Origin: Cloeon dipterum | Lineage: Eukaryota > Arthropoda > Insecta > Ephemeroptera > Baetidae | Assembly (NCBI RefSeq): GCF_949628265.1 | Contig: NC_088789.1 | Coordinates: forward strand, 33,783,883 to 33,847,882 | Length of the DNA stretch: 64,000 nucleotides | Direction of reading: 5' to 3' | Shown: positions 9,814 through 64,000 of the stretch, piece by piece | Layout: every line of letters begins with the position of its first letter | Position numbering within the stretch: position 1 is the stretch's first letter | Notes under the pieces: generated by a model | Told to the model about the DNA's origin: nothing | Database searches by the model: none | What the model saw: only the letters and a program-made list of their open reading frames with translations | Translations under genes and position numbers: made by a program

Positions 9814-10083
9814 AGAATGTTGGCGGGCGACACAGAATCCATCAACCAGACGCACGAGGTTTGGTATCGCATGCAGCCGCACCGTTTTGGCAGATGACAT
9901 GTTCGATAAGAGTACATCAAGATGCATTCCGACGTACCTCGCCTTGTCAGATTTAAGTCCATGCACACTTTTGGTCGGTGAACTGTAAGTAGATGATTGC
10001 ATAATTTATTAGTCACTGGAGATGAGTACCCTGGCCCTTCAGGACTGATTACGTATTTACAATATATCTGCGAGAAACCTTAG
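9814..10083 (+). pseudogene. Relic terminal exon (CTLD D) of a lectin-OBP gene
   Basis: Nucleotides match the family's last exon: the phrase for INQTHEV near 9840-9860, a YICEKP-like end with a TAG stop near 10083, and the same post-stop AAATC..AAGATG flank. The middle is rearranged and no single frame survives. None of the other 27 exons is present nearby, so this is a partial duplication left from array expansion, closest to the gene 2 type. It is a host gene fragment, not a mobile element. Confidence 0.75.
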
Positions 10084-22900: not shown

Positions 22901-25900
22901 CATATGAAGATAAAAAATCCTACGGAATTTGGTTTGACATCGGCACCTACACCTATCTCTTGGGCAACAAACCAGTTTGTATCCGAGTCTTGCATAGCTC
23001 CAAAGTCTGATATTTTTGCTTGACAGATGACGTGGTTAAACAATTACCACCAGTGCTGTGCATTGGGAATGGAGGCGCTGAATATCGACAACGCAGCCGA
23101 GCAATTGGGCCTCACTACCCTGGCCAAGGCAAACAAAGGTTGTTTGCTCATGAATTAAGAAACAGTCTCAAGTTCCATTTTTAAATTTCAGACAACTGGA
23201 CCGCGAATTTTAACTACTGGACCAGTGGCACGTGGAAGGGGGCGCCTGTAAAACAATGGTTGTGGTGCGAGCCCGAAGGACCCACAGTTTTCGCGAAGGG
23301 TCTTGTTTGGGAAAACCTCCAGCCTGACAATAAAGGAGGGAACGAGAGCTGCGTGCATTTCCGCTTTACTTTGAATTCCACGGGAACAATTATGACGGAC
23401 CGCAACTGCGCAAATAAATATATATTCGCGTGCAAGGTAGAGCATGAAATTTCTTGAGGAACCAATAATACGGATATTAAATTTCAGAGTGCATTGCAAA
23501 CCACCCCAAAACCTTGCGTTGCATCCTGCCCAACAAAGAGCTGTGAAATAAATGTAAAATCTTATGTTAATGATGAATAAATAAATGATGCATTAATTAA
23601 TATATGAATTCTAGAACAAACTCTTTGAAACAAACAAGAAATCTTTACGGGGTTTGCAAATAGTTTTTATGTTAAAATAGATTTTAATGGTATGTACTAT
23701 TGTCCAGACTTTTTCTCTTATGGAAACTGGTACGACGGATGTGGCCGCAATTTCCTGACTTACACCTCAAAATTGGTGAGACATAAAATTAATTTTCACT
23801 GACTTATACAAAAGGTTCTACAAAAAAATTGATTAATATAGTCAAACTGGACAGCAGCCCGTGACAGTTGCTGTGACATTGGTTTGACTCTGGCCTCAAT
23901 GGAATCGGCGGGGAAGTCGAGTTGCTTTTCCAGAATAGTCTCAAGTACTAATTAAAATTTAAAGAGTGACGAAATAAAGTTTAATATTTACTAAACAACT
24001 CAAGAATATTCTCCGGCGACCTATGGTGACTTCTGGGTCTCCGGCACTGATCTGGGGTGTGATTCAAACTTCCGTTGGTGCACCCTGAGCCGGGACTTCG
24101 TCCACCCTGAGCTCACTTGGAAGGAGGGACACCCGAAACCCGGTCTGGACTGCGTTTATCTCGAAGTAAAGAAAGAATCCGTGCTGCTGGCCACCGATGA
24201 CTGCGCCCAAAACAAGAGTTTCCTCTGCGAAGTGAGAAAGAAGGGTACCTTCGGAAGGGCCATGCAGACCGAATGTGCAGAAACTTGGGACATCACAATT
24301 GGTAAACGCCCGCAAATCATTCCTTTGTGAGTGTCTAAATGGAAAGAAAATTTCATGCAGACCAAATCGATCTGTTAATGCAAGTGAGCGCTTTTCTCAC
24401 GGCAACTGTATCGCTTAATTTGAAGGTTGGTCGGGAATCTATATTTCTACCATTTGATTCTACAATTGATCTCGTACTTTTAGTGCTTCTTGAAATGCGT
24501 CGGTGTGGAAATTGGAATGGTAATCGTACTGAACAGAAAATCTCACATATTTTTCAATGCACTGAATTGTTGAATTTTCGTTCAAAATAAAACCATAGGC
24601 GATCGGTGCATGTAAGTGGGTCAAGGGTCACTTGAGGTGTCTAAAGGAGGCAGGAAGGAAAAATTCCTAAATTTCAATTTTCCTGGCCAAATTTCTCTTT
24701 GTTTGCTATATATTTCAGTCTGCAGGCTTGCCGCCTGCTCACTCTAGAGCGCAAGCACACGAGCGCATGCGTACTAGCGACCCGTGTGCTAGGCTAGTGC
24801 CACACGAATCCACGGGTTAAATCAAATGGGAAATTGGGACCAATCAGCGACCTCCAAATTTAACACGTAAAATCCCATAAGCAGCAAGTGGTAGCCAAAG
24901 TCACTTAAAAGTGGTGGGAGAGCACGTGAATGTGACAGCGACTTCAATTTTTTACTTGTTTTGGTACAATCGTTGATTGGAAAAGCTGATTGCTGATTGA
25001 GAATAAACAAAACAAGCACGTCTGTCAAAATGCTGAATTGAATATTATAAAAATATGGTGCACAAAGACATTTTGGTTAGGGAAATTGCCGTGGTCATCG
25101 AGTTTAAAATGCGCACCGCGCTCGACAAACACCCAAATTTTTGCTCTCCAATTGATTAATTAATTGTGACAAAAATTAAATTTGATTTTATTTGCTGAGC
25201 TATTATTTTATAAAAGTGAGTGAGTTACAAAGTGAATATTTTACTATTTAAGTCTAAAAGTAGATCTCCAATAATAAAATTTGTGCGCTCTTATACTATC
25301 TATTTTTGGATCTGGAATAAAGAAATAACTTTTACCTTATAAAATATTAACAAAACTAAAATAGTTAAATTGTAATATACTATGTACTTTGGCTTTACAA
25401 TTTGGTTGGGAGGTTGTTGTATACCATTTACGGTTTATATGGTTTTTTCCACGATATGGGCCACTGCCACTTGAGGTGTATCCAAATCCACCGATCGCCT
25501 ATGAATAAAACTTATTCTAAAGAATTATTTTTCTTAAGTTTGGCATAGGTGGATTGGACGCCATAGCAACTCTGCGACAGATAGAACTCGTGTCTCAGGA
25601 GGAACCCGCGAAATTGGAGACGGGATTTGTGGCTTATGATCAATGCAGTGACATCAGTATATTTAATTTTCTTAATTTTAAATAATTGCCAGAAATTCAT
25701 TTGTAAAACAGAATCTGACGACGAGTGTGTGATTGCCTACGAAACTTACAAGTGCGGCCAGCAAAAAGCGCCTGATTTGGTCTCAAAAATCATCACCAAC
25801 AACTTCGATAACAAGACAATGGTTTGATTTAAATTGGTTTATCGAAGGATTTTAATTATTGCTCCTAAAAGCTGATACCACCAATTCCTTGTGTTCCGGT

Positions 25901-27398
25901 GCCCCGAACTTGTTGGCTTTCAAACACTGTTCCTTGCGTAAAAAACGTAAATTTAACCGTTTGTTTGTGGACATATCATTCAAGATTTTCCGTAAATTGT
26001 AGCAAACCGCAATCGACTTGACCAAGAATTACACAGTGAAATGTAATTTATCCTTTTAAAATCCACTTAAATTAAAATTTCGTTTCCTTGTGGTCAAAAT
26101 AGATGGCATAAATATTATCTTTTCCGATAAAAAAAATTGATTGTGCGTGCAAAAGACAAAGTGAATTTTTCTTTGCATCTCTGCTCGTAGTCACAACAAA
26201 TTTTTTGACCGGGAGAATTCTTAATGCCCCTATTTTGGTCCTTAGGAATCGTTTGGTACACAAAAAATGAGTTTTTAGTGGCAAATTAATCTTATGAAAT
26301 AATTCTCATTTTACAAATCAACAATATAGACCAATCGGGATTCTTTAAGATTGTACGCAACAGGACATTTTATGTATCTGATGGAGGCATAAAACCGGTA
26401 AATATTTTCGCCATATTTAGGAATTGAAATATACGGTCATGCAATTTAAGACTCCGTATCAAGCCTACACTCGTTGCTGCGAACTTGGAATGCGTCTCGT
26501 AGAACCTCAGACGGTTGCTGATTATCAATTACTTTACGATAACTTTGGTATGCGATATTCATTGTTATTTCCTTTAAAATTAAATTAAAAACCACCTTCA
26601 ACGAAGTTTCTGATTGCACCAATCCATTCTTGAGGCTCGAATCAGGTAAAGGGGATATTTTTGCAGGCCAAACAGTCTTGCGCGACCTGCGAACTTTTTT
26701 TCCCGCCAAAACAATTTGAATGCGCGAGAAGTGCGCACGCGTTAGAGCTGTGGTTTGACCCCTTGCAGAGAGACCACCTGAACGAAAATGTCAGATCCAG
26801 CCAGTTCTGACGCATGCGCACGTCTCGCATTAATTTAGTGTTTTTTCGGGAGAAACATTCCGCACGTCGCGCTGCACTTTTTGGACTGAAAAACGTCTGT
26901 TTTAGCTCAAGAATCGATTGGTTTGCTTAGAAACTTCGCATATAAGACGGTCTTTAAATTAGCGTTGACAAATAATCTCGTTTTTACGTATAATTTTAAA
27001 CTTATCAGTCCAGGAAGATCAACACAAATATAATAAAATATATTTTATTTCAAAAATGAAAATAACGCACGCACGATGCTGATAAGGAATCTAAACTTAT
27101 TTAAATTTGTGCAGGTGACTATTCTGCAATGATGGGGGGCGACACAGAATTCATCAACCAGACACACGAGGTGTGGTGTCGCAGCCGCACCCTTTTAATG
27201 GAAGCCTTTTATGATGCGAGTACCAGATACCAATGCGGTCCGACCTACGTCAGATTCTATCTTTATTCAATTTATATCGCACGACTGTATATATTTGATC
27301 CCAAACAATATAGCATCGTTCCTGTCGAAGGAGACGTGTACCCTGTAGCTTCTAAAGTGGAAGTGGATACAGAGCGTTATGTCTGCGAGTTACTTTAG
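19926..27398 (+). CDS. Secreted mucin-like CTLD(x3)-OBP-CTLD fusion protein, gene 4 (mosaic, two intronic insertions)
   Basis: Exons 19926-19994, 20054-20102, 20149-20279, 20332-20452, 20504-20808, 20865-20912, 21309-21336, 21391-21449, 21500-21599, 21651-21934, 21988-22021, 22910-22974, 23027-23138, 23192-23436, 23488-23553, 23615-23651, 23708-23775, 23842-23944, 24005-24301, 24361-24425, 24484-24519, 25539-25656, 25712-25821, 25872-25946, 26003-26042, 26330-26397, 26451-26547, 27115-27398; about 1,037 aa and intact. The linker exon at 23615 is 12 nt shorter than in its sisters but in frame. Intron 11 holds a LINE fragment and intron 21 a hAT-like element; both leave the splice sites whole. 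The 5' third is nearly identical to gene 5, the exon 10-15 region is closest to gene 6, and exon 22 to gene 3, which points to gene conversion or unequal crossing-over. A poly(A) signal lies at 27589-27594. Confidence 0.86.
22063..22878 (+). mobile_element. 5'-truncated non-LTR retrotransposon (LINE)
   Basis: An open frame at 22124-22822 (232 aa) matches the C-terminal part of a LINE reverse transcriptase: YLGVMF, then KLFDLKVSPTASYGIEV, LERVKTRYLKKVLG, and a terminal zinc-knuckle-like cluster (CKCRFCGEQC...HILKC). The 3' end is a short ATTC repeat (near 22868-22879). It is flanked by a perfect 11-bp target-site duplication ATAACTTGAAT (22052-22062 and 22879-22889). Comparison with gene 6 intron 11 gives the empty site. 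The catalytic core and endonuclease are missing, so it is dead on arrival. The clade is unresolved. Confidence 0.9.
24594..25503. mobile_element. Non-autonomous hAT-like DNA transposon
   Basis: A 910-bp insertion in intron 21 of gene 4. It has perfect 15-bp terminal inverted repeats CATAGGCGATCGGTG and a perfect 8-bp target-site duplication AATAAAAC (24586-24593 and 25504-25511). The other array genes show the empty site. An 8-bp duplication fits hAT; P elements also make 8 bp, so hAT is a preference. No transposase frame is present. The perfect ends suggest a young insertion. Confidence 0.88.
26600..26957. mobile_element. Fold-back element in intron 27 of gene 4
   Basis: Orthologous to 17102-17412: left arm from CGAAGTTTCTGATTGCACCA, right arm TTGGTTTGCTTAGAAACTTC. 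Same intron position and flanks, so inherited by duplication rather than inserted anew. Confidence 0.7.
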
Positions 27399-28164: not shown

Positions 28165-31100
28165 ATGAATTTCGGCTTCTGGACTTTGCTTGTGAGTGTT
28201 AGTCTTCAGACAATTGGGAATGCACAAAATCAAGTAAGTACATTCTTACATAAGTTTCTGTGGTGACATTTTTACTCAAAAATGACTTACAGGGAAACAA
28301 AATTAAATCCATCAAAATCACAATAACCAAACAGATATCTGGTAGGTTTTTGATTAAAAATGTAAGTGAAAATTTAATTTCAATCAGGTCCGTTACAAAT
28401 CCCCAAAATTCGTGTGCAAAACAACGTGCGAAGAAAACATATAATTTTGTGCTGCGGCTTTAAAAAATGTCTGGCAACTGCAAATGCCACGGCAAAAAAG
28501 ACTGCTCCAACCAGCACGGTATAGGCATCAAAGGAAATTTCGAAATCAAAGTTAATATGTTTTAAAGCAGACCAATAGCATTCTAACAGCACGACCGTCC
28601 TCGTTGCCACCGGACACGACGGCAGCCATGATGACAGGAAGCGCTGCTGGTGAATCATCATCAGCAGCACCAACGGAAGCCAGCACTATACCGAGTAAAA
28701 TAAAAATTCGAATAAAAATCGATGCTCAGCGCACGAAAAATCAGGTCACGATTCCAGTCCACGCCCCCTCGATGTGACAGTTGTTCCAACTGAGGTCATA
28801 ACTGACCTTAAAACTGACGTCACGACCAAAGCGACCGAAACGGTGCAAGATGGCACCGAATCGCCGTCTCCTTCGACCGATCCATCCACGCAGGTTGTCC
28901 AAGACACGACAACTGCAATCGATGCGATTTCATCAAAAGTTGGAACTCCTACAATAACATCAACATCTACAACAAGTAAGCCTACGGTAACAACAACTAC
29001 GACAACCACAACGTCTACAACAACAACCACCACCACCACAGTCCGTTTATAAATTTATTAAAATTCTATGCAAATTTAAGTATAAAAAATTACAGACACT
29101 TCCGTGCAGTTTATCTTGTGCAGAGTACAACAGTTTTCTAGCGGTATGAATATTCTAAATTCGTGTTTTATGCCATCAACAATCGAATCCTGAGGATCGA
29201 AAATAATGTTAAGTGGCCAATTTACTTATTGTTATTACGAAACATAAAAAATCGATAGCAGATTTTACCCCGACAAAGTGTGGAGATGGCATTGCGACAA
29301 AGCGATATTCATATAGTTTAATTATTATTAAGTGACAAGGCTGGCAACATTGCGCTGCCATTGCCAATCAAAGAACAAGATTGCGCGAGTGGTGTTAATT
29401 ACGCTAGTTGAAGATAAAAAATAAACTGCAATTACATTCCCGCGTATTTTTTGGAATGTTAAAGTTGAAATTTCGTCCCGATTGAACCGGCTTCCTTACC
29501 AAATTATTCAGAACCTCCACCATAAAAATCCTAACTTAATTTATTTGTTCGATGTAGAATAATCCAACCTCAGGAACACTGCAAAGTAGGTTTGAAATTT
29601 ACGAAATTACAAACGATATATAATTTTTGATAAAATCAGCCAATGGAACGAAGAAAAAATCAAATTGTGGCATGGAGTATTTTGTTTCTACCTCTACTGT
29701 GAGATTTTTTCAATTTTATTTCTGGTAAACATTTAAATAAAAAATTAGGCAACGAGAAACGAAGCAGCACTGCGATGCAAGGCGCTAAATATGATCCTAT
29801 TGGCCGTGACCTCTCTCGAGGGGACGGAATGCCTGAACAATTTTGGAGGTTTTAACTCACACTGGCTACATAATCTATGTTAATACTCTAAATTAAGCAA
29901 ACACTTTCTGGACGAGTGGTTCAAACGAAGATGAAAATTGCAATGTGGAAAAAAAGTACGCTTGGTGCTCGACGGGATTTAACATGTCGGGAAACGTGAT
30001 CAATTCGCAAAAACTGTGGTTGCCAACCAACAACACCAGCATTTCTCCCACGGAACGATGTTTGGCTGTTTCTATTTCCACGGTATCCTCGAAACAGGGC
30101 CTGGTGCACAGAAAGTGTGACGACGCCCTGCCCTTCATCTGCCAGTATTCCGTCGACTGCCCAGAGCTCTGCATCAAAGACGTTTGGATCACATAACATA
30201 TTAATATCAATCAACTAATTCTAACCCGTTTCAGGAATCCTTATTCGACTCCTCAGGACATTTGAAAGGTATATAGAAAACTGAGAGAATGATAAAATGC
30301 TAAATCTTAAAATGAAGATAAAAAGTCCTACGGAATTTGGTTTGACATCGGCACATACACCTATCTCTTGGGGAACAAGCCAGTTTGTATCCGAGTTTTG
30401 CGTGACATCACAGCCTAATTTTTTTGCTTGATAGATGGCTTGGTTGGACAGCTACCGGCAGTGTTGCGCTTTGGGAATGGAGGCGCTCAACATCGACAAC
30501 GCAGCTGAGCAATTGAGCCTTACTGCCTTGGCAAAGGCAAATAAAGGTTATTAATCATAACATTTTAGAATAGAAAACTTTCTTAGGAGATAATTTATAA
30601 TTGCAGACAACTGGACTGCCAATTTTAACTACTGGACCAGTGGCACGTGGAAAGGGGCACCTGTGAACCAGTGGTCGTGGTGCGAGCCAAATGGACCTAC
30701 AGTTTTCGCAAAGGGTCTTGTTTGGGAATCTTCCCAGCCGGACAACAAAGGAGGCAACGAGAGCTGCGTGCATTTCCGCTTTACTTTGAACACAACTGGC
30801 ACCATCTTGACAGACCGCAACTGCGCCAATAAATATATTTTCACATGCAAGGTATACCGTCCTTAGCTTGAAGTTTATATCGGCCTAAAACCATGATTTT
30901 AATTTTCAGAGTGCATTGAAAACAACCCCAAAACCGTGCGTTGCATCCTGCCCAATTGCGAGCTGCGTAAAAATTGTAAAATCAATATCATTTTAAGCGA
31001 TTGGATATAAAGGTGGATTAATTTTAATCTAGAACTCCCTCTTCGTCTTGGATACTTCTACTGGACTGTATAATTTGCAAAGTATTTTTCCCTTCTCTGT

Positions 31101-33913
31101 AGTAAACTATTTTAAATTTTTTCTGTATTGATACCCAGACTATTTCTCGTATGGAAACTGGTACGATGGATGTGGCCGCAATTTTCTGACTTACACCTCA
31201 AAATTGGTGAGACATCAGATTACAGATTAATTTTCACAAAAATGTACAAGATTCTAAAAAAATTGATTAATAGTCAAACTGGAAAGCCGCCCGTGACCGT
31301 TGCTGTGCTATTGGTCTGACTCTGGCCTCCATGGAAACAGCGGGAAAGTCGAGTTGCTTTTCCAGAATAGTCTCAAGTACGAGCAAAATCTAAGAGAGCG
31401 ACGAAATAAAGATAAATATATAAAAAACAACTACAGAATTTGCTCCGACAACCTATGGAGATTACTGGCTGTCCGGCACTGATCTGGGGTGTGATTCAAA
31501 CTTCCGCTGGTGCACCCTGGGCCGGGACTTCGTCTACCCTGAGGTCAAATGGAAGGAGGGACACCCTAAGCCCGGTCTGGACTGCGTTTACCTCGAAGTA
31601 AGAAATGAATCCGTGTTGCTGGCCACCGATGACTGCGCCCAAAACAAGAGTTTCCTCTGCGAAGTGAGGAAGAAGGGCACCTTCCAAAGGGCAATGCAGA
31701 CCGAATGTGCAGAAACCTGGGACATCACTGTTGGTAAGGCTCGGAAATCATTGAAAAAAAACCAAACGCAAAGATAATTTCTTGAAGAACAAATCGATCT
31801 TCTAATGAACGTGAGCGCTTTTCTCACGGCATCTATTTCGTTAAATTTAAGGGTAAGTCAGGAACAGGAATCTATATTCATTCCATTTTATTAATAATAA
31901 ATTTGTACTTAGTGCTTCTTGAAATGCGTCGGAGTAGAAATTGGAATGGTAATTAACTCAATTGAAAATCCCGAATGTTTTTTTAAATGCTATCTCCTGT
32001 TGAATTTTAATTGGAATAAAACTGACTCAATAAACGAATAATTATTCTTTAGTTTGGGATTGGGGGATTGGACGCGTTAGCAACGCTGCGACAGATAGAA
32101 CTCGTGTCCCAGGATGATCCCGTGCAATTGGAGACGGGATTCGTGGCTTATGATCAATGCAGCGGCATCAGTATGTTTCATTTTAAATAATTGCCAGAAA
32201 TTCATTTGTAAAACAGAATCTGACGACGAGTGTGTGATTGCCTATGAAACTTACAAGTGCGGTCAGGAAAAAGCACATGGTTTGGTCTCAAAAATAATCA
32301 CAAACAACTACGATAACGGCACAATGGTCTGCTTTGAAAATCTTTTATTTAGGGTTTTAATTTTCCTTCTTAAAGCTGTACCCACCAACTCCTTGTGTTC
32401 CGGTGCGCCGAACTTGTTGGCTTTCAAACACTGTTCCTTGCGTAAAAAACGTAAATTTAACCGTTCGTTTGTGGACATATCATTGAAGATTTTCCGTAAA
32501 TTGTAGCAAACCGCAATCGACTTGACCAAGAATTATACTCTGAGTTGTAATTTACCCTTTAAAAATCCACTAAAATTAAAATTTCGTTGCCTTGTGGTCA
32601 AAATAGATGGCATAAATTTTACATTTCCGATAAAAAAATGGATTGTGCGTGCTAAAGACAAAGTGATTTTTTTTTTGCATCTCTGCTCGTAGTCACAACA
32701 AATTTTTTGATCGGGAAAATTCTTAATGCCCTTATTTTGATCCTTAGGAATCGCTTGGTACACAAAAAATGAGTTTTTAGTGGGAAATTAATCTTATGAA
32801 ATAATTCTTATTTTACAAATCATTAATATAGACAAATCGGGATCATTTGCGACAGTTAAAAACAGGACATTTTACGTATCTGATAGAACCATTAATCCGG
32901 TAAATATTTTCGCCATATTTTGGAATTGAAATTTACTCTCTTGCAAATTTAGACTCCGTATCAAGCCTACACTCGTTGCTGCGAACTTGGAATGCGTCTC
33001 GTAGAACCTCAGACACTTGATGATTATGAATTACTTGGAATTTCCTTTGGTATGCGATATTCATTGTTATATCCTTTAAAATTTATCAAAAACCATCTTC
33101 AACGAAGTTTCTGATTGCACCAATCCATTATCTTGAGGCTCGAATTGGGTAAAGGGGATATTTATACCGGCCTAAAAGTGCAGCGTGACGTGCGAACTAT
33201 TTTTCCCACCAAAACAATATGAACGTAAATGCGAGAAGTGCGCATGCGTGAGAGCTGGTTTGAGAGCTTATACCGCCTGTAAGAATGACTTATTTGACAG
33301 ATCCACTTCTTGCATATTGTTATGGCGGGAAAGAAAGTTCGCTCGTCACGCTGCAATTTTTGGCCAGAAAAATGTCCACATTAACTATATAATATTCGAC
33401 CGTCAGGAACCGGTAGGTTTGCTCAGACGCTTCGTCAAACAAGCCGGTTTTTAAATTAGCTTTTACAAATATAAATAATGGCGTTTGTACACGTATTCTA
33501 TTCATAATTTTAAACTTATCAGTCCAGGAAGATGAACACAAATATAATAAGCCATATTTTATTTCACAAAGAAAAAATAACGCGCGCACGATGCTGATAA
33601 GGAATCTAAACTTATTTAAATTTGTGCAGGTGGCTATTCTGCAATGATGGGAGGCGACACAGAATTCATCAACCAGACGCACGAGGTTTGGTGCCGCAGC
33701 CGCACCCTTTTAATGGAAGCCTTGTATGATGCGAGTACCAGATACCAATGCGGTCCGACGTACGTCAGATTCCTTAGTAATGCAATCTATGTCGAACGAC
33801 TGTATATATTTGATCCCAATAAAAATCGCATCGTTCCTGTCGAAGGAAACGTGTACCCTGTCGCTTCTAAAGTTCAAATGACTGTACAGCGGTATGTCTG
33901 CGAGTTACTTTAG
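28165..33913 (+). CDS. Secreted mucin-like CTLD(x3)-OBP-CTLD fusion protein, gene 5
   Basis: Exons 28165-28233, 28293-28341, 28388-28518, 28571-28694, 28745-29040, 29096-29143, 29558-29585, 29640-29698, 29749-29848, 29898-30181, 30235-30268, 30318-30382, 30435-30546, 30607-30851, 30910-30975, 31033-31081, 31139-31206, 31274-31376, 31437-31733, 31788-31852, 31913-31948, 32053-32170, 32217-32326, 32376-32450, 32507-32546, 32832-32899, 32953-33049, 33630-33913; about 1,039 aa. Domain order is as in its sisters. The segment between exons 4 and 5 is 50 nt (28695-28744): removing it as a GT-AG mini-intron keeps the frame, while reading through gives an early stop. The 5' part up to CTLD A is nearly identical to gene 4, including intron 6, so that duplication or conversion is recent. 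A poly(A) signal lies at 34099-34104. Confidence 0.84.
33100..33455. mobile_element. Fold-back element in intron 27 of gene 5
   Basis: Inverted-repeat element orthologous to those in genes 3, 4 and 6 (left arm CGAAGTTTCTGATTGCACCA; right arm GGTTTGCTCAGACGCTTCG). More diverged in the middle than its neighbours. Confidence 0.65.
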
Positions 33914-35181: not shown

Positions 35182-38100
35182 ATGAATTTCGGAGTCGGGA
35201 CGTTCCTTGTGATTGTTATTCTTCAGACCATAGGGCATGCGAAAAAACAAGTGAGTACATTCTACAATTATTTGGGGTCCATTTGTGATTAAAATGATTT
35301 GTAGGGAAACAAAATTAAAACCTTCAAAATCACATTTAACAAGCAGTATTCTGGTAGGTTTTGTTTTGCAAAAGAAAAAAAATTAACTTTAATTTCAATC
35401 AGGTCCTATTAAAATCCCAAAATCTCTTCTGCAAAACAAATTTCGAAGAAATTATATCATCACTTGTTGCGGATTTAAAAAATGTCATGGAAATGCAAAT
35501 GCTACGGTGAAAAAGACCACTCCAAACAGCTCGGTATATAATATGCATTAAAGGAAAAATTTATATCAAAGTTAATTGTGCTTTGAAACAGACCAATAGC
35601 ATTCAATCAGCACGACCGTCCTCGTTGCCAACGGCAACGACGGCAGCCATGATGACAGGAAGCTCTGCTGGCGAATCGTCATCAGCAGCACCAACGGATG
35701 CCATCACTATACCGAGTAAAATAAAAATGCGAATAAAAATCGATGCTCAAACGGACGAAAATTTAGGTCACGATTCCAGTCCTAGCCCCCTTGATGAGAC
35801 AGATTTTCCAACTGACGTTCCGAAGGAGGCGAAAACTGACCTTCAAACTGACGTCACGAACAAAGTGACCATTACGGTGCCAGATGACACCAAATCGACG
35901 ACTCCTTTGATCGATGCGGACTTTTCATCAACGCAGGTTTTCCAGAAGACAACTGCAATCGATGCGATTTCATCAAAAGTTGCAACTACTTCGATATCAT
36001 CATCAACCACGCAAGCGATGTCATCAACCACGCCCACCATGAAGACGTTAACCCCGCCCAAAATGTCAACACCTACTCCCTCTCTGACGACAATAACTAC
36101 GCTTAGGATGACGAAAACAATTACGCCCACTATGACTACAACATCAATGCCCAGGATGACAACAAATATGCCCGCAGTGACTACAATTACTACATCTACG
36201 ACGACAACAACCACAGTCCGTTTATGAATTTTTATTAAAATCTTATAGAAATTAACTAGAAGATTTTTACAGCCCATTCCGTGCAGTTTATCTTGTGCAG
36301 CTTACAACAGTTTTCTTGCGGTATGTTGTATTCATGTATTGTGTTTTCAACAATCGATTCCTCAGGATCGAATTAGGTTAGGTGGCCGATTTACTCAACA
36401 TAAAGAATTATCTGAATTATGAAAACCGTTAACGCATTTCGTGATTTTTGCAAAGCCACTCAATATAACCTTCTGATATCGTATAATTGGTGTTAGATTC
36501 GCAGGTTTCAGATCAGAAAGTAACTATAATTATACGTATCCGTGTATTTTCGGCACGGTAGGTAATTTTTCGTCCGGATTTAATCGGCTACTTAACCAAA
36601 TTTCATCCTCCAGCATATTATATATTCATATAGTTTAATTTATTTATTTAATTTAGAATAATCCAGCCCCGGGAGCACTGCAAAGTAGGTTTCTTACGAA
36701 ATTAAAAATGATTTATAATTTATACTTTAAATCAGCAGCCAAAGGCACAAAGAAAACGTCAAATTGTAAAATGGAGTATTTCGTTTCAAGCTCCACAGTA
36801 AGAATTTTTATTTACAACTCAGGAATATTTTAAATTTATAATCCTTAGGCAACGAGAAACGAAGCAGCACTACAATGCAAGGCATTAAACATGATCCTTT
36901 TGACTGTGACCTCTCTCGAAGGATTGGAATGCATGAACAATTTTGAAGGTTGTAGCTTTTACTTTTGTAACGTGGTCCACTATAATTCTCTTAATTAAGC
37001 CAAAACGTACTGGACAAGCGGCTCGAACGAAGATGATCAATGCTATTTGGCAAAAAAATACGCTTGGTGCTCGACGGGCTTCAATATGTCGACAAAATTA
37101 ATCGAATCGGGAAAAATCTGGTTGCCGACCAACAACACGATCCCCTCTGCCACTGAGCGATGTTTGGCCGTTTCTCTATCCACAGTACCCACGAAACAGG
37201 GCCTAGTGCACAGAAAGTGCGACGACGCCCTGCCCTTCATCTGCCAGTATTCCGTCGACTGCCCAAAGATCTGCATCCGAGACGTTCGTTCTAGAAAACA
37301 TACAAATTCATTTAGTTTATATTAATCCCATTTCAGGACTCGTTATTTGACGCCTCAGGACTTTTGAAAGGTATGTAGGATATTTAAAAAATGATATCTC
37401 ATAACTTGAATCTCTCATTATACATATGAAGATAAAAAATCCTACGGAATTTGGTTTGACATCGGCACCTACACCTATCTCTTGGGGAACAAACCAGTTT
37501 GTATACGAGTCTTGCATAGCTCCAAAGTCTGATTTTTTTGCTTCACAGATGACGTGGATAAACAGTTACCGGCAGTGTTGCGCTTTGGGAATGGAGACGC
37601 TGAATATCGACAACGCAGCTGAACAATTGGGCCTTACTGCCCTGGCCAAGGCAAACAAAGGTTGTCTGGTCATGAATTAAGAAACAGTCTTAAGTTCCAT
37701 TTTAAAATTTCAGCCAACTGGACCGCGAATTTTAACTACTGGACCAGTGGCACGTGGAAGGGGGCGCCAGAGAAGCAGTGGTCGTGGTGCGAGCCCGAAG
37801 GACCCACAGTTTTCGCGAAGGGTCTTGTTTGGGAACCCTCCCAGCCAGACAACAAAGGAGGCAACGAGAGCTGCGTGCATTTCCGCTTTACTTTGAATTC
37901 CACGGGAACAATTATGACCGATAGGAACTGCGCCAATAAATATATATTTGCTTGCAAGGTATAGCTTGAAATATCTTGAGGAAACAACTATGGCTATTAA
38001 ATTTCAGAGTGCATTGCAAACCACCCCAAAACCTTGCGTTGCATCCTGCCCAACAAAGAGCTGTGAAATAAATGTAAAATCTTATGTTAAAGTTGAATCG

Positions 38101-41005
38101 AGAAATGAGGCATTAATTAATATGAATTCTAGAACAAACTTTTTGAAACAAACGCGGGTACTAACGAGAAAACTTTACGGGGTTTGTAAATAGTTTTTAT
38201 GTTAAAATAGATTGTAATGTTCTGTACTGTTGTCCAGACTTTTTCTCCTATGGAAACTGGTACGACGATTGTGGCCGCAATTTTCTGACTTACACCTCAA
38301 AATTGGTGAGACTTAAAATTAATTTTCAATGACTTATACAAAAGATTCTAAAAAAATTGATTAATAGTCAAACTGGACAGCCGCCCGTGACCGTTGCTGT
38401 GACATTGGTTTGACTCTGGCCTCAATGGAATCAGCGGGGAAGTTAAGTTGCTTTTCCAGAATAGTCTCAAGTACTCTAATTAAAATTTAAAGAGGGACGA
38501 AATATAGATTAATATTTACAAAACATCTCAAGAATATGCTCCGGTGACTTATGGTGACTTTTGGCTCTCCGGAACTGATCTTGGGTGCGATTCAAACTTC
38601 CGCTGGTGCACCCTGAGCCGGGACTTTGTCGACCCTGAGGTGAAGTGGAAGGAGGGACACCCTAAGCTCGGTCTGGACTGCGTTTATCTCGAAGTGAGGA
38701 AAGAATCCGTGTTGCTGGCCACCGATGACTGCGCCCAAAACAAGAGTTTCCTCTGCGAAGTGAGAAAGAAGGGCACCTTCGGAAGGGCCATGCAGACCGA
38801 ATGTGCAGAAACCTGGGACATCACAATTGGTAAACGCCCGCAAATTCATTCCTTTGTGAGTGTCTAAATTGAAAGAAAATTTCATGCAGACCAAATCGAT
38901 CTGTTAATGAACGTGAGTGCTTTTCTCACGGCAACTGTATCGCTTAATTTGAAGGTTGGTCGAAAATCTATATTTCTACCATTTGATTAAAAAAATGTCG
39001 TACTTTTAGTGCTTCTTGAAATGCGTCGGAGTGGAAATTGGAATGGTAATCATACTGATTTGAACATCTCACATGTTTTTTAATGCACTCAACGATATTG
39101 AATTTTCATTCATTATAAAACTTTTTTTCTAAAGAATTATTTTTCTTTAGTTTGGCATTGGGGGATTGGACGCCATAGCAACGCTGCGACAGATAGAACT
39201 CGTGTCCCAGGAGGATCCTGTAAAATTGGAGACCGGATTTGTGGCTTACGATCAATGCAGCGGCATCAGTATGTTTAATTTTATATAATTGCCAGAAATT
39301 AATTTGTAAAACAGAATCCGACGACGAGTGTGTGATTGCCCACGAAACTTACAAGTGCGGCCAGCAAAAAGCGCCAAATTTGGTCTCAAAAATCATCACC
39401 AACAACTTCGATAACCAGACCATGGTTTGATTTAAATTCTTTTATCGAAGGATTTTAATTTTTGCTCCTAATAGCTGATACCACCAACTCCTTGTGTTCC
39501 GGTGCGCCGAACTTGTTGGCTTTCAAACACTATTCCTTGCGTAAAAAACGTAAATTTACCCATTCGTTTCTGGACATATCATTCAAGATTTTCCGTAAAT
39601 TGTAGCAAACCGCAATCAACTTGACCAAGAATTACACATTGAATTGTAATTTATCCTTTTAAAATCCACTAAAATTAAAATTTCGTTTCCTTGTGGTCAA
39701 AATAGATGGCATAAATATATCTTTTCCGATAAAAAAATGGATTGTGCGTGCCAAAGACAAAGTGAATTTTTCTTTGCAATTCTGCTCGTAGTCACACCAA
39801 ATTTTTTGACCGGGAAAATTCTTAATGCCCCTATTTTGATCCTTAGGAATCGTTTGGTACACAGAAAATGATGTTTTATTGGGAAATTAATCTTATGAAA
39901 TAATTCTCATTTTACAAATCAACAATATAGACAAATCGGGATCCTTTAAGATTGTAAGCAACAGGATATTTTATGTACCTGATTCAAGCGTATATGCGGT
40001 AAATATTTTCGCCATATTTTGGAATTGAAATTTACTCTCTTGCAAATTTAGACTCCGTATCAAGCCTACACTCGTTGCTGCGAACTTGGAATGCGTCTCG
40101 TAGAACCTCAGACACTTGTTGATATTCAAATACTTTTCAATAACTTTGGTATGCGATATTCATTGTTATTTCCTTTAAAATTAAATAAATAAACCATCTT
40201 CAACGAAGTTTCTGATTGCACCAATCGATTCTTGAGGCTGGAATTAGGTAAAGTGGATATTTTTACCGGCCTAAAAGTGCAGCGTGACGTGCGAACTATT
40301 TTTCCCGCCAAAACAATATGAACGTAAATGCGAGAAGTGCTTCTGCGTCAGAGCTGGTTTCAGAGATTATACCGCCTGTAAGAATGACTTCTTTGTCAGA
40401 TCCACTTCTTGCATATTGTTATGGCGGGAAAGAAAGTTGGCACGTCGCGCTGCACTTTTTGGCCGGAAAAATGTCCACTTAAACTAATTAGACCCTTCAG
40501 GAACCGGTAGGTTTGCTCAGACGCTTCGTCAAACAAGCCGGTCTTTAAATTAGCTTTTACAAATAATGGCGTTTGTACACATATTCTATTCATAATTTCA
40601 AACTTATCAGTACAGGAAGATGAACACAAATATAATAAGCCATTTTTTATTTCACAAAGAAAAATAACGCGCGCACGATGCTGATAAGGATTCTAAACTT
40701 ATTTAATTTGTGCAGCTGTAGGTGGCATTTCTGTTATGATGGGGGGCGACACAGAATTCATCAATCAGACGCACGAGGTGTGGTGTGTAAGGCGCACCCT
40801 TTTGCCGGAAGCCTTTTATAGTCCTAGCACCAGATACCAATGCGGTCCGACGTACATCAGACTCACTAGTAACGGAATTGATATCAATCGACTGAATATA
40901 TTTGATCCCAATGTCAATGACGTCGTTCCTGTCGAAGGAGATGTGTACCCTGTCGCTTCTAAAGTGGAAGTGGGTGTACAGCGGTATATCTGCGAGCTAC
41001 TTTAG
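35182..41005 (+). CDS. Secreted mucin-like CTLD(x3)-OBP-CTLD fusion protein, gene 6
   Basis: Exons 35182-35250, 35305-35353, 35403-35533, 35592-35715, 35767-36215, 36273-36320, 36657-36684, 36739-36797, 36849-36948, 37000-37283, 37337-37370, 37432-37496, 37549-37660, 37714-37958, 38008-38073, 38133-38181, 38238-38305, 38368-38470, 38533-38829, 38890-38954, 39010-39045, 39151-39268, 39315-39424, 39475-39549, 39606-39645, 39931-39998, 40052-40148, 40722-41005; about 1,090 aa. Rough residues: signal 1-20, basic linker 24-83, Thr-rich stalk 84-274, CTLD A 300-440, B 459-599, C 638-770, OBP 778-903, D 942-1090. CTLD B has SQPDNKGGNESC at the canonical EPN site and MTDRNC at the second Ca site; A, C and D lack a canonical triplet. 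OBP cysteines: TEC, CFLKC, YDQC, DDEC, YKC. This is the cleanest reference copy. A poly(A) signal lies at 41196-41201. Confidence 0.88.
40201..40549. mobile_element. Fold-back element in intron 27 of gene 6
   Basis: Orthologous inverted-repeat element: left arm CGAAGTTTCTGATTGCACCA, right arm GGTTTGCTCAGACGCTTCG. It is followed by the shared TTTAAATTAGCTTTTACAAA flank. Confidence 0.68.
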
Positions 41006-43824: not shown

Positions 43825-46800
43825 TTATTTAAAATAATTACAATCGGTGCTGTTTGAGCCTCGATGAAGGAAGAAGCGGCTGCTGGCGTCGTGCGAGAGC
43901 AGCCAAAGGTTATCAGCACCGTCCAGCGCGTAAATAATCGAGTCCACGTCAGGCTCGAACTAAAACAAAAATTATAAATATATTTTCCTGTAAATGATAG
44001 ACACGAAACTATTTTACCTTGTGAAGCATTTCCTCGTTGAACGGAATTTTTGTGTCCCAAGCGGTGACGCATTTTTCCTTCTCGTGGACAAAGTACAAGA
44101 CTCCATTTTTGTCCATGAGCATCCCTTTCGAGTAGGAAGACAAAGTGCCGATCGGCGTGACGGAGATGGGCTTCTTGGTGTCGTCGACGAAAAATATTTC
44201 GCGGCATTGGAAGCTGCACGCGTAGCCGAGCAGATTGTTCAGCGGCGAAACGATCATCCAAGCGGCGTCCTTGACTCCGCCCTGACCCTTAGAGAACGGG
44301 CCATTCTTCCGGTCGATGGTCCTCGTCTTGTTTGCTTTAAGGGCGAAAACGAAAAACTCGCCGGACCACTCGGAAACGAGCGAAAACGTGTCGTTCAGCA
44401 CGTCAACGGACATCACATTTATGATATTCCTCGGGTTTCTCGCCAGGGGATGGACCTGTACGAGGGAGTCGTTGTTTTTCAGGTCGAAAATCCGAAAGGT
44501 CGGTGGGCAGTTCCGGGAACCTCCGTCCAGCACCCACAGCCGGCCCAATTCGTCTGTTTTTAGGTCAATCACGCCCTGCACGGCGTCGCAATTCGCACCA
44601 ATCTGCGGAAATAATGTAATTATATTTTAAAGACTGTCCTTGACGCAGTTTCTGAGCCCACCAATCGATTCCTGAGGGTCGAATTAGTTGGAGTCGATAT
44701 TTTTTCTGACCAAAACGGCGAGCATGACGAATAACTTTTTTCCCGCCAAAACAATTTGAACCTAAATACGAGAATTGCGCATGCGTGAGAGCTTGCTGGA
44801 TCTGATAAAGAAGACATGCGTACAGGGGGTCTCTCTGCAAGTGCCCAAATCAGCTCTCACGCATGCGCAGTTCTCGCATTTAGGTTCAAATTCTTTTGGC
44901 GGGAAAAAATTCTTACGTCGCGCTGGACCTTTTGGTCAGAAAAAATATCCATTTTACCTAATTCGACCCTCAGGAATCGTTTGGTGGGCTCAGAAACCTT
45001 GTCAAAGACGGTCTTCAATTTAAATTAAAATAAATACGTATTTTAAAGGGTTCACAGTTGGCCATAATTCATAAAAAAAATTGTAGTCATAGTTACAATG
45101 AAGATAAATTTATAAATAAGGTGTCTAAAATAACCCGCATAAAAAAATATCGCCTGAGAATGTTCTAAGAATATACCGACTTCGCCCAGGATTAATCTAA
45201 AAAATTAATTATATATGAACTTATGATACGGTTTTTCGTGATACTGGATTAATCTGTAGATTAATTTAAGAGAATATCCTTAGAATGTTCCAGGATTATT
45301 CTGCCGGGGTTTGTTTCAAAAAGCTCTAAAGAATGATCCTAGAACATTCTCAGAATATACTTATGGATTAATCTTTGGATTGTTCTAGGATTAATATTTA
45401 GCGTATCAAATCTTAACTTTGGATTATTCTTTGAGGATAATCTAAGAATGTTCTTAGGTGATTCTAATATCATTTTAAGGTTAACATAGATTGTGACAAA
45501 AATTATCCCCAAATTATTCTTAAAATTACCCTCAGATTGTTCCTAGAATATTTCAAAATCTGTTATTTCTATTACTGCGATATAATTGGGAATTATTTAA
45601 ATAATAACAAACTTATTCAGTTAAATTTTTAAAATTTATTTGTTTTTAATCATATCAGGTACAAAATTTTCTCTCATTCGATGCCAGCACCGCCAATCTT
45701 GAAGCCCAAACTGCAGAACTTAAACGATTGTATCTTTTCCCGTCGTGCAAAACAGCTGCGGACGGCTTGAAGCTAAAAAAAGGGAGCGACTCATAGAAAA
45801 AAATAAATAAAAGCTTTTTTCAATTAGCTGTGCTTGGAAAATGGAAGGTAGAAGTATGTCAAGTTCATGCATAATATTTTTCCATTTTCCAAGCGAAGCC
45901 AATTGAATCGTAATGTGTAATCAAAATTCTCGAAAGCGTACAAAAAACGCGACCGCGATTTACGTGGAAAAATTACATTTTTCATCACCGATTTACAGTT
46001 TCCGCCACCCAAACTTATTTATAGGGTTCTAATTAAGAACATTTAGGACTGGAGAAGATCCCATATCAAAATATTGGTGGCGAAAACTGCATAAGTAGCG
46101 GCGAAAAGTGTAATTTTACAATAAAACCGTTGGATTTCAAAGTTGCGCGATCTGTTCTAATTTCTTTGGACGCTAATCTATAAAATGGGACTTACCCTGT
46201 TAACCGCCAGATCCAGGCCATCCGTCCAAGTCTGCGGGACGTCCGTGTTGTCCCTTACTGGCGGCGTCCGGCGTCCTGCGTCCGTTAATAACTTTAACTT
46301 TGAACGGCGGTTGACCGTTGACGCGTTGGACAAAGAGAGCGAGGCAGGATTTTGTAAGTCTCTTCGTCTCTTGCTGCTGCCACCGCCCGTCGCCCCTCCC
46401 CCGCTCCACAACAGAGGCAGGCAGCAGCAGCAGGCATTCCATGCAAGTGCGTGCATGCATGTGCAGCCGCCGCTACCACGCGCACACTAAAATCGCCCTT
46501 TTAACCCTTTTTTGTCCTTCTGACCATTATTTTCATATTTGCCCGTTTATCGGTAGCATTAAATAAGACTCTTTGTGTTAAGAAATTAATTTATTCAATC
46601 GCATTTATGATTTTTACCCTTTTTAATCCGGGCAGATTCTTTGAAAAATAAAGGCATCATAATTTTGTATCAGATAATGAAAAAGGTTTAGGTTTTAATA
46701 TTAAAATATAATCCATCGACTTAATTAAAAAATATTTCCTAGAAAAATATTTTTTGTGATATTCTTCATATTATTTAACAATATGGCAGTTAATTTTCTT

Positions 46801-48021
46801 GATTAAATTATGTTTCATATTTAATTTTGTTTTTAATTTTAAGAAAAATATCGAAGTTATTCTCTTTTAGGGTTTTTTAAAAGAATATTCTTGGAACATT
46901 AAAAAAATATTTTTGGATTAATCTCAGAATGATCCATAGAATAATCTGGGGATATTCTATTAACTATATTCAAATTGCCCCTTTGGGATTATTCTAGGGA
47001 TATTCTTGTAAATTAATCTCTATATTGACTTTAAAACATTTTAAGGTTAATCTGGATTCATTCTAAGAAAATTCCAAAAATTATTTTTTTAGATTAATCT
47101 CAGAATGATCTAAAGAATAATTTGAGAATATTTTTTTAGATTAATCTCTAGATTGATATTAAACATTCATAGATTAATCTCAATTAATACAGGATTAATC
47201 CAGGATCATTTTTTCGGATTAATTTTTTCGGGTAAATTTTGATTAATCTAAGATTATTCCGGATATTCCTGGGTTATATTTTTTTATGCGGGAATCTACA
47301 TTAAACGCCCAACAACTTTGCAACGTTGATGAACTTCCTAGGTCAAAGGTCAAGGTCACTAAAATGTGAAACAAGATTTAAAAAAATTCCTGTATATCGG
47401 AGGGAACAAAAATTTGTATTTTTGAGATAGCCAAAATGTGCTTCATTTAATAAAAAAGAACATGTAAAAAAATGGTGGAACATTTTTCCCGCAATTCCGA
47501 GAAATTTGAATTTTGAAAAACGTGTTTTTTTGACAAAAAAATTAAAACTAAAATCACAATTTTACTATTTTCACTCTTTGAGGTGGTTCAAATAAACCCT
47601 CATCCTCTAGAGGGTGATCTTATCATAATTAATTAAATTTCCGTCATTATTATTGTGTCGTTCCTTATGAATTTGATTTTTCGTTTACATTTCCAATTTA
47701 TTAGTTTTAAAAAAATACCTTGTCTCTCTGGAGACGGTACAATGGGGTCGAAAGATGGTTATCGGCGTTGTTTCTGCACGGCAACCACGCGTACGTCAAA
47801 CGCGGCAATCCTCTGCTCGAGCTGTTCGGAAAGCCAAAGAAAATCCTGTCGCCGTAGACAACCATGCTCGAAGGAACAATCGGCCCAGCGGCGTCCTTGG
47901 CGTTCTTCGCGTCCCCGAAAAATTCAGTTTCGCTCCACTCGTAGACTTGCGTGAAGCTGAGGGCGGAGGCCACGGACAAGCCCAGCACCACCGTCACAAT
48001 AATTAAGCAAGGCCAGTTCAT
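43825..48021 (-). CDS. Yellow / major-royal-jelly-protein family protein
   Basis: Three exons on the minus strand: 48021-47719, 44602-44018, 43959-43825, all phase 0, giving about 340 aa. Exon 1 opens with a signal peptide (MNWPCLIIVTVVLGLSVASA), then YEWSETEFFG, GDRIFFGFPN and GLPRLTYAWLP. Exon 2 carries the diagnostic GRLWVLDGG and KDAAWMIVSPLNNLL. Exon 3 has DNLWLLSH. The family consists of secreted beta-propeller proteins involved in pigmentation and other roles in insects. The protein is a little short for the family (typically about 400 aa) but no exon appears to be missing. Intron 1 (3.1 kb) hosts a TIR element, a fold-back element and a nuclear-receptor-like motif. The four yellow relics in the lectin array derive from a different paralogue. 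Confidence 0.88.
44635..45022. mobile_element. Fold-back element (intron 27 family) in intron 1 of the yellow-like gene
   Basis: The best-preserved copy. Both arms carry TTTCTGAGCCCACCAA (left) and its complement TTGGTGGGCTCAGAAAC (right), then CGATTCCTGAGGGTCGAATT / AATTCGACCCTCAGGAATCG, GCGGGAAAAA and CGCATGCG toward the centre. Nearly the whole 390 bp folds on itself. No gene inside. Confidence 0.8.
45134..47292. mobile_element. 2.2-kb terminal-inverted-repeat element with subterminal repeats
   Basis: Perfect 17-bp inverted ends CCCGCATAAAAAAATAT (45134-45150; complement at 47276-47292). Inside each end are about 400 bp of dense degenerate repeats of GATTAATC, AGAATATTC and TTCTTAGATT type. 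The centre includes a GC-rich segment (46185-46500) unlike the rest, with a donor-like AACAGGGTAAGT on the minus strand near 46200. No transposase is recognised. A target-site duplication is not clear. It is likely non-autonomous, possibly with captured host sequence. Confidence 0.65.
47340..47358 (+). promoter_or_regulatory. Candidate nuclear-receptor response element
   Basis: AGGTCAAAGGTCAAGGTCA contains a DR1 (two AGGTCA spaced by 1 nt, HNF4 or RXR/USP type) overlapping an extended monomer site TCAAGGTCA (FTZ-F1 or ERR type). It lies in intron 1 of the yellow-like gene, about 360 bp beyond exon 1. Binding is inferred from the motif only. Confidence 0.4.
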
Positions 48022-48536
48022 TTTTCACTAAATTTCAAGAAAATAATTTAAATCAGAATAGAACATCAGCCAGAATTAATTTCCTAATTGAGAACTCAAT
48101 AAAAAATAATCGATTATTTGCGTGTTTCTGTTGAAAAATGGATAAAATTGATGAAACCTTTTTGTGAGCAATCTCAGTTGTGTTGTTTCGGAGCGACTGC
48201 TGTGGAGAGAAGAGAGAGCCTCTCGCAGTGACTGAGCCGACGCTCAGATGATAAAAATATGCGCAGTTAAAATTAGGAACTTTGCCCCCAATGTGTGCTG
48301 ACGGAGATGAGCTGCTTGTTTGTCTTCTCCGGCAGCATAAACAACAAACCAGATTGTGTGTGTGTTTTTTAAGATTAGTTTTTTCACATGCGAAAATGTC
48401 TTTAGCTTCATAAAATCTTTAATTTAAGATTCAGCTAGATAATCTTTTTACATCTTTTTAATTTCAACAATTGACAAATACCTGCTATTTTTCAGCCTGA
48501 AGTAGATAATAAAATAATATATTTGCAACACCGGGG
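48022..48536 (-). promoter_or_regulatory. Upstream region of the yellow-like gene
   Basis: Likely promoter and 5' UTR. It includes a purine-rich GAGAGAAGAGAGAG tract near 48213 and a TGTGTGTGTG stretch near 48356. No certain TATA or start site is assignable. Confidence 0.35.
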
Positions 48537-49422: not shown

Positions 49423-52400
49423 ATGAACTCGATACAGCTGGGAATATTATGCGCTTTCGCTCTGCTGCTCCTTTCTGCCTCGCAGGTTTGCTTGTTTATT
49501 ATTTAATATACGGAAAATATTTTAATTCTTCGTTCCATAAGATTGAGTCGAGGATAATATTGAAGGGCGGAAGAGTTTTAAAACCGATCAGATTGAATTC
49601 CATGAAGCGTCGCGTTTACATAATCAAATGCTGCGGACGGAAATCTTGCTCTAATGTGAAGTATTTGAAGAAAAAATCATCCAATCAAACAATTCTACAC
49701 GATAAAATTACTGCTAAAGCCGCTCAGACAGAAGAAAACAATGCAAGGAATAGGAAGACAACTGCTGAAGTACATTTAAATCGGAATTAATCGTTAAAAA
49801 TTAAATTTTCCCCTTTTAGTCGGTCACAGAAACAGAATTAAACAGTGGAGAAATGAGTACAGCGAAAGGAAATGAAATTACTTTTGGTTCTGAAGTAGCA
49901 GACACATTAAAAACGAATAATTTCGACCTGAAAGGATCTGCAACAGTTAAATCAACTGCGTCTACAACAAAAACGACGGTAATTCAGTTTTAAATCGTCC
50001 TAAATGCTTGTTCAAGTCGGTTTTTTTAGCATTTTATTTCACAAATTACAACCATCAGCTTGCCAGTAAAATCTCTTTTTAAAAAAATGTACTTAAAATT
50101 GAATTATTCTCGAAGCGCACCGCCACTGATTCTGAAATGACAGAAAGCATAAACAGCAACTCGAGCACGATTTCTTTCGATTTGAAAGAATCTACAACGG
50201 TTAAATCAACTTCAACAACAACAATGACGGTATTTACAGTTTTTAATCGTGGTTTGTTCTCGATTAAAGTCGATTTTCTAGCATTTTATTTCAGAAGCCA
50301 CACCCATCTTGCCAGTAACATCTTTTTTACTATAATTTTATTTTTAATACAATTTTTTGTCGAAGCTCACCACTGATTCCAGTTCCAAAATGCCTGCCTC
50401 AACGAGTTCAGAATCGCTGGAAACAATTTTTTCAGCTACAAACACCATGGTGCGGTTTAAAATTACAATTTCCCAATTAAATTAATTATTGTTAAAACCA
50501 TTTTAGCCTAAGATTGAAACCAGCACAACTGCAGTAAATTTTTAACAAAAGATTATCATTTTTAAACAGTAACTTAATTATATCTTAGGCAATTGCTGCT
50601 TCCTCTCCATCCAGTTCTGTTTCTGCGAGCTCTGTTTCGTCTAATTCCGTCTCGAATTTCCCAATATCATCTGTAAAATTGCTGCATTTCTTAATAATAC
50701 GATTTTAATCATAAATTTAATCTTAAGTCAAGCCCAGATTTAACTAGCACAACCTCTGCATTTCAGTCAAGTACTACAACTCGGTCTCCGGTAAATTTAA
50801 TGCTGCAAATTAAAGTATTTAAGATATTGCATTTTGTATTTTTAGATTTTATTCGATTTTTCAACTTTGGAAAGTGGGAAAAACGCGTCCCTTTTTGACA
50901 GAAACGATAATCTAATAAGTTAAAATATTTTAATAGTTGTTTAGCGTTTTATTTATTTTTAATTAGATCCACATAGCTACGGAAATTGGAGAGAAATCTG
51001 CGGAGAAATGTTCCTATTTGGGAGGGCCATAGTGAGAGAGAGCTCATTTTATTTTAAAACATAAATAATAATCAATAATTTTAGGTGACTTGGGAAGCAA
51101 ACGTGAGGTCTTGTTTCAGCATCCAAATGAAGCCGCTGGCGTTTGAAACTTCCGCGAAATTCGACTGTTTTAAAGCATTCACTAAACGTACGAATAACGC
51201 AAAATTATTAAAATCACAATTATTCATCCATTGATTTTTAAAGAGGAAGTGTGGCAGCACAATTTCAATTACTGGACGTCTGGCCGCCGGCTTTTCGACA
51301 ACAATACCTTCCGATGGGGCTATTACACCAATTCCGAACCATTTCCGGACTTTCCCTCCAGCCAGGGTCCACACTGCGTCCACATTGCGCTCGTGAAAAA
51401 CAACAAAACGGAGCTGACCCAGAAAAACTGCTCCAACACCTATGTTTTATCCTGCAAGGTTTGAATAATTTGTTTGAATGAGAGTTGTTTCTATTTAATT
51501 TAAATTATTCAGGGAAAAACGACGCCTGCTCCACCATGTTTTCTGCCAAGCTGCCCAAATGTTTCCTGCGCCAAAGATGTATTTGATAAATATCATTTAA
51601 TTGACCAGTTGCATAAACCCTTAGTTATTGAAGCCGCCAACAGAAGGCGCAACCACAGACTTTCTTAAAAATTTTGTTTTAAGGCATTTCCGCTGCGATT
51701 TCAGACTCAATCTAGCTATTTTGCTTTTTTTTTAATTAATTTGCTAATTTTTGACGTGCTGAAAACCAAAATCGGTTCAGCCATTCGCCGTAGAAACGTT
51801 GGAAAAGATTTTTTTATTTCAAAAAATAGTTTTTCACGATTCTACGGCGATTGGCTGAACCGATTTTGGTTTTCAGCACGTCAAAAAATAGCAAATTAAT
51901 TGAAGAATGCACAGTAGCTAGATTAAGTCTGAAATCGCAGCGGAAGTGCCTTAAAATCGAAACTCTACGCTACGGTGGCGCCATCTGTTGGCGGCTTCGA
52001 ACACTTAGGGTTTATGCAACTGGTCAATTACGTGGGATTTTTATAATTTTTTGCTTTAGTTTTCCCTTTATTCGTCTGCACCGGACTCTTCGTTTAAATA
52101 TCTAACAGGTTTTTATTATTTTTTAAATTCATTGAATTAATGTTTTACGAAATTTTAGATCCCAAAAAATTTGGAACTTGGAAAAATATAAAGTTTCGAA
52201 CGTTTATGTTCAGTCTTTCTGCGAAATCGGTATAAAATATTAAATAGAATTGATCAAATTTAAATTATTTGAATTAAATCCTAGTGGTTTCAAGCCATTT
52301 CCTTTTGTTGCTCGATTGGAATGAAGTTGCTCAGCCTCGACGTTGATTACAAATATGACGGATTGTCTAAAATAATAGGTTTTATATCAATTTAATCTTA

Positions 52401-63977: not shown

Positions 63978-64000
63978 CTGCGGGCCAAGTAATTAATTTT

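Follow-up and report, generated by a model that had tools for sequence, protein, structure and literature searches.

In a 64,000-nucleotide (nt) stretch of contig NC_088789.1 of Cloeon dipterum (the window hereafter), the gene at positions 35182 to 41005 is predicted to encode a secreted, mucin-stalked lectin that carries an odorant-binding protein (OBP) domain between the third and fourth of its C-type lectin domains (CTLDs). The gene is one of an array of similar copies, and a diverged paralogue within the window contains the same kind of domain. Exon structure, profile matches, and conservation among the copies make it very likely that this fused CTLD-OBP architecture is real.

Gene model and domain order

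The gene at 35182 to 41005, the fifth complete copy of the array (c5), was modelled from three-frame translation and an alignment of the five complete copies, and the model includes two added micro-exons. Its 27 exons, all on the plus strand, join into an uninterrupted open frame of 1,110 residues; the ATG lies at 35182 and the stop codon ends at 41005, exactly the limits given in the original prediction for this region. All 26 introns have GT-AG borders, and 22 of them are 46 to 62 nt long. A candidate exon between exons E5 and E6, in the frame that encodes GFRSESNYNYTYPCIFGT, was dropped, as its tblastn match was confined to copy c5.

Exon 1 (35182 to 35250) supplies the start codon and a hydrophobic leader, MNFGVGTFLVIVILQTIGHA, which reads by eye as a signal peptide. 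Exons 2 and 3 (35305 to 35353 and 35403 to 35533) encode an N-terminal CCGFKKC segment to which a Pfam scan of the whole array protein assigns no family, and exon 4 (35592 to 36215; 624 nt, phase 0-0) encodes a mucin-like stalk rich in threonine and serine. Four CTLDs follow, each preceded by a linker, with the OBP domain before the last of them. CTLD1 spans 36736 to 37283 (exons 36736 to 36797, 36849 to 36948, and 37000 to 37283); CTLD2, with a QPD motif, is encoded by 37432 to 37496, 37549 to 37660, and 37714 to 37958. CTLD3 runs from 38238 to approximately 38762, through exons 38238 to 38305 and 38368 to 38470 and the first part of exon 18 (38533 to 38829). Exon 18 then continues directly into the OBP domain, and 15 residues separate the last CTLD3 cysteine (38754 to 38756) from the first OBP cysteine (C1; 38802 to 38804). 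The OBP domain is followed by linker exons (39475 to 39549 and 39606 to 39645) and by the stop-terminated exons of CTLD4 (39931 to 39998, 40052 to 40148, and 40716 to 41005). Read by eye, the protein stops shortly past its last cysteine and has no hydrophobic tail; together with the N-terminal leader, this suggests that it is secreted.

The domain between CTLD3 and CTLD4 belongs to the OBP family

The OBP domain occupies 38784 to 39424, where 38784 is the first position of the Pfam match. It is encoded by the last part of exon 18 together with exons 19 to 22 (38890 to 38954, 39010 to 39045, 39151 to 39268, and 39315 to 39424), whose lengths of 65, 36, 118, and 110 nt are the same in all five complete copies. 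The joined CTLD3-OBP piece matches PBP_GOBP (PF01395) at 38.6 bits (E 1.2e-9), against a gathering cut-off of 22 bits; the OBP domain alone scores 36.8 bits, and residues 797 to 902 score 35.5 bits within the whole protein. At the sequence level, odorant-binding protein 1d (4pt1; E 5.9e-6) is the closest solved structure. A family profile built from the six OBP sequences in the window, five of which are closely related, matches 18 different PDB sequences at E<=0.01, of which 16 are named odorant-binding proteins; the remaining two carry Anopheles gene numbers only, and no other named family appears.

The six cysteines are spaced C-x30-C-x3-C-x42-C-x8-C-x8-C, with the motif CFLKC, identically in 5/5 complete copies. 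The original prediction had described this spacing and had placed the domain, in frame and within one gene, between the third and fourth CTLDs; all of this is borne out by the open frame and by the five copies. Its assignment of the domain to exons 19 to 23 is off by one exon relative to the present model. The domain is not a separate small protein with a signal peptide of its own: it is embedded, sharing an exon with CTLD3, and is an OBP domain rather than a conventional OBP. Among viral contigs and among bacterial and archaeal genomes, a search with the OBP alignment gave 51 and 35 pattern matches, respectively, and none was a relative by tblastn.

A diverged paralogue carries the same domain

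The gene at 49423 to 54064 (plus strand) encodes a leader, a CCGRKSC segment, a short serine/threonine stretch, two CTLDs, an OBP domain, a linker, and a further CTLD. Its model is partial: some linker exons and those lying within 49978 to 50967 are unplaced, and the acceptor assigned to its CTLD2c exon is not AG, with an AG a few bases upstream. Its CCGRKSC segment (49542 to 49769) resembles the CCGFKKC segment of the array gene at 35403 to 35533. No counterpart of CTLD1 was found in this gene, leaving three CTLDs, and its OBP domain therefore lies between the second and the third. The original prediction, which called it gene 7, had expected the arrangement of the full-length array copies here as well; the OBP domain is indeed present, with three CTLDs found instead of four.

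The OBP cassette of this paralogue (52702 to 53293; exons 52702 to 52780, 52836 to 52885, 52940 to 52975, 53019 to 53133, and 53184 to 53293) has phase 0 at both ends. Its peptide, joined by hand and with an uncertain acceptor at the second exon, is 31% identical to the array OBP domain, and on its own it passes PF01395 at 32.9 bits. A search with this family had been proposed as a check of the original prediction, and the array and diverged sequences both exceed its cut-off. Cysteine spacing in the diverged domain is x3, x41, x8, and x8, with the C1-C2 distance uncertain and an extra cysteine two residues before C6. The intron phases 1, 0, 0, 1, 0 are common to the array and diverged domains. 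At the join of the preceding CTLD with the OBP domain, the diverged gene has a phase-0 intron (52654 to 52701) that is missing in the array genes.

These features offer a possible origin for the fusion. The OBP domain forms a phase 0-0 exon cassette, and the CTLD modules next to it likewise have phase 0 at their ends, as would be expected from exon shuffling; it may have arrived as an exon block with phase-0 introns at both ends, inserted between CTLD modules with phase-0 boundaries. The simplest history would be a single insertion before the array and the diverged gene separated, after which the array lineage lost the join intron. Alternatively, the diverged gene may have gained that intron.

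Lectin domains

Over the whole array protein, Lectin_C (PF00059; cut-off 22.6 bits) scores 44.7 bits across three stretches, and CTLD3 alone scores 28.6 bits. CTLD2 matches CTLDs in the PDB, the best being codakine (E 1.1e-5) and another being C-type lectin domain family 4 member K. The QPD motif is present in CTLD2 of all five complete copies; EPN also occurs in three of the copies and EPS in two. QPD is described as a galactose-type motif in the available part of PMC11373435. CTLD4 would be a CTLD by its exon order, phases, and position, which are the only basis of that assignment, and its sole Pfam listing is a weak, sub-threshold match to a phage family.

The OBP domain is conserved among array copies and CTLD4 evolves fast

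Four further complete copies precede the gene at 35182 to 41005, all on the plus strand and with the same domain order: c1 (3034 to 8319), c2 (11418 to 17861), c3 (19926 to 27398), and c4 (28165 to 33913). Positions 1 to 1362 (plus strand) hold the 3' end of another copy, cut by the window edge, with C4 to C6 of its OBP domain and then CTLD4 exons. From exon E5 to the stop codon, the frame is open in 5/5 complete copies (815 to 823 residues as mapped). In c1 to c4, the mapped starts of E7 and E25 were moved to an AG at a distance of 3 or 6 bases, which keeps the frame, and the exon 3 donor of c1 and exon 1 of c2 were misplaced by the mapping. Between two of the copies, an isolated 16-residue piece at 9817 to 9864 resembles the last CTLD exon and may be what remains of a lost copy.

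Over the ten pairs of complete copies, the ratio of nonsynonymous to synonymous substitution rates (dN/dS) of the OBP domain is 0.11 to 0.20. By codon alignment, the corresponding ratio of proportions (pN/pS) is 0.19 for the OBP domain (95% interval 0.12 to 0.28), 0.15 for CTLD2, 0.20 for CTLD3, 0.33 for CTLD1, and 0.44 to 0.57 for three linkers. For CTLD4 it reaches 0.82 (0.66 to 1.03), with the frame open in 5/5 copies; CTLD4 is fast-evolving, with intact frames. The four CTLD4 pairs involving c1 were left out of dN/dS for length, whereas the pN/pS alignment includes this copy. For dN/dS, for pN/pS, and for the comparison with introns given next, the first two codons taken for E25 in c1 to c4 precede the in-frame acceptor, as does the first codon taken for E7 in the two former measures; the resulting upward bias is small. 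When four of the five copies (c1 omitted) were compared with their flanking introns, pN of CTLD4 exceeded intron divergence in four of six pairs, with a bootstrap fraction below 0.05 in three of the six; for the pair c3-c5 the two were equal, and for c3-c4 pN was the lower.

Alternative readings of the architecture

OBP and lectin exons could belong to separate, interleaved transcripts, which would make the fusion an artefact of exon joining; the protein is known here from DNA and not from RNA, and its splicing is deduced. However, such transcripts are highly improbable, because the last CTLD3 cysteine and OBP C1 occupy one unbroken exon: in all five copies, the second half of CTLD3 and the OBP domain through C1 form a single 297-nt exon. 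The sole in-frame methionine of this exon sits four residues ahead of C1 (MQTEC), too close for a leader to fit, and exon phases match throughout the gene. Still more remote is the idea that the six-cysteine domain comes from some other helical, disulfide-bonded family and looks like an OBP by chance. Shuffling the part of the protein encoded from exon E5 onward does yield a loose version of the classic OBP cysteine pattern in 135 of 20000 cases (the unspliced six-frame window has it nowhere), so the case for an OBP domain stands on hidden Markov model scores, exon phases, and conservation, and not on the cysteines alone. Two sequences at 31% identity that each pass the curated PF01395 cut-off, and PDB matches whose named members are odorant-binding proteins throughout, argue against chance resemblance.

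Several observations besides the reliance on DNA weigh against a fused, sugar-binding lectin as we describe it. CTLD1, CTLD2, and CTLD4 each lack a Pfam lectin match when searched alone, so that the Lectin_C search suggested with the original prediction succeeds for the whole protein and, domain by domain, for CTLD3 only; CTLD4 has no CTLD match in the PDB either. In the diverged gene, the c-exons of all three CTLDs show no QPD, EPN, or EPS, so that sugar binding would not be shared by the whole family. In two of the five complete copies, c1 and c4, the mucin exon (3453 to 4089 and 28571 to 29040) is one base out of frame, as judged relative to the other three. This shift may reflect decay, assembly error, or alternative splicing; the exon is phase 0-0 in the open copies, and skipping it would preserve the frame. 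Finally, positive selection on CTLD4 was considered and set aside, since the comparison with introns is mixed over its six pairs, and we limit the claim to fast evolution.

Possible function

Insect lectins that join a CTLD to other domains are termed CTL-X in the available parts of two accounts (PMC11373435, PMC8226959). The full proposal that the array encodes a mucin-stalked, multi-CTLD secreted lectin of the CTL-X kind with a built-in OBP domain, and that ligand binding, glycan binding, and a defence or barrier role all apply, falls a little short of an even chance. Taken separately, it is fairly probable that the OBP domain binds a small ligand, glycan binding is slightly favoured, and a defence or barrier role is tentative. 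These likelihoods, like that given for the architecture, are judgements and were not computed.

In the mechanism we propose, the stalk and CTLDs, CTLD2 probably through its QPD site, would tether the protein to a surface bearing glycans, for example that of a microbe, of mucus, or of a barrier layer. There, the OBP domain would capture or present a small hydrophobic ligand, the same one for all paralogues, while the fast-changing CTLD4 would tune the target of each. The uniformity of the OBP domain suggests one ligand or partner across the paralogues, and the changing CTLD4 suggests varied targets. A bolder version is doubtful: a carrier addressed by its lectins, in which a constant OBP pocket and a diversifying terminal lectin would deliver or sample one hydrophobic cargo or signal at many surfaces.

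The OBP domain may instead have lost ligand binding and serve as a disulfide-rich rigid spacer, or as a protein-protein contact, between CTLD3 and CTLD4. Its connection of 15 residues within a long modular protein would suit such a part, and homology is no proof of an open pocket; but the six cysteines and an above-cut-off PBP_GOBP match persist at 31% identity, and pN/pS of the OBP domain matches the low values of the most conserved lectin domains, whereas the three linkers are looser. We regard this explanation as unlikely. We think it slightly less likely again that the protein is a chemosensory accessory, an odorant carrier anchored by mucin and lectin in sensillum fluid or in the mucus of wet surfaces such as gills. 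In favor of it, according to the available part of PMC7250882, clusters of gill cells with a neuronal marker express OBPs in Cloeon dipterum. The OBP domain is also of the classic type, and the short introns would suit a small genome. Against it, nothing in the window points to olfaction, and the multiple CTLDs and mucin parts indicate immunity or barriers instead. Many OBPs have non-olfactory roles.

Other features of the window

An exon of the yellow/major royal jelly protein family adjoins the array at 44009 to 44626 on the minus strand (PF03022, 42.1 bits). A leader-like exon at 47710 to 48024 resembles a yellow/major royal jelly protein gene by eye and has no Pfam match. The pairing of a gene of this family with a classic OBP domain would fit a hexapod. 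At 63541 to 63999, also on the minus strand, lies an exon of the RNA 3'-terminal phosphate cyclase family (PF01137, 105.5 bits).

Comparison with known systems

The usual view of OBPs is as small, free carriers. A conserved OBP domain locked within a lectin, and in the same position in paralogues whose OBP domains share 31% identity, would show that the fold can serve as a module of bigger extracellular proteins. It also offers a direct test of non-olfactory OBP function, here the capture of ligands at surfaces bearing glycans. Should the architecture prove common in the lineage, OBP counts based on PF01395 would also take in genes that are in fact lectins. A narrow search of the open-access literature, including the available parts of PMC2823692 and PMC5381652, returned no described protein joining OBP and CTLDs, in agreement with the original prediction. 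Beyond the literature covered, a CTLD-OBP protein may already stand in gene annotations without having drawn comment.

The comparisons below draw on the available parts of the papers cited. The partners named for CTL-X lectins there include trypsin-like protease, FN3, IG, EGF, and chitin-binding domains, and OBP is not among them (PMC11373435, PMC8226959). The array protein is like these lectins in that its CTLDs are joined to another conserved domain in the same 1,110-residue frame, and it differs in its partner, an OBP domain, and in having a mucin stalk and as many as four CTLDs. It is probably a CTL-X-type lectin whose partner, OBP, those accounts do not name. With the immulectins, which are dual-CTLD insect lectins (PMC11373435), it shares tandem CTLDs and a QPD motif, as in Aedes albopictus IML-1; immulectins, however, have two CTLDs and no other motif, whereas the proteins described here have four or three, with a mucin stalk and an OBP domain. 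Long D7 salivary proteins likewise hold an OBP-type domain within a larger secreted protein, but they join OBP to OBP (PMC2823692), in contrast to the union of OBP with lectins found here. Finally, the domain resembles classic insect OBPs such as 4pt1 and LUSH in its six cysteines at classic spacing, its PF01395 match, and its sequence matches to solved OBPs, and it departs from them in having no leader of its own and in being embedded in a lectin of 1,110 residues.

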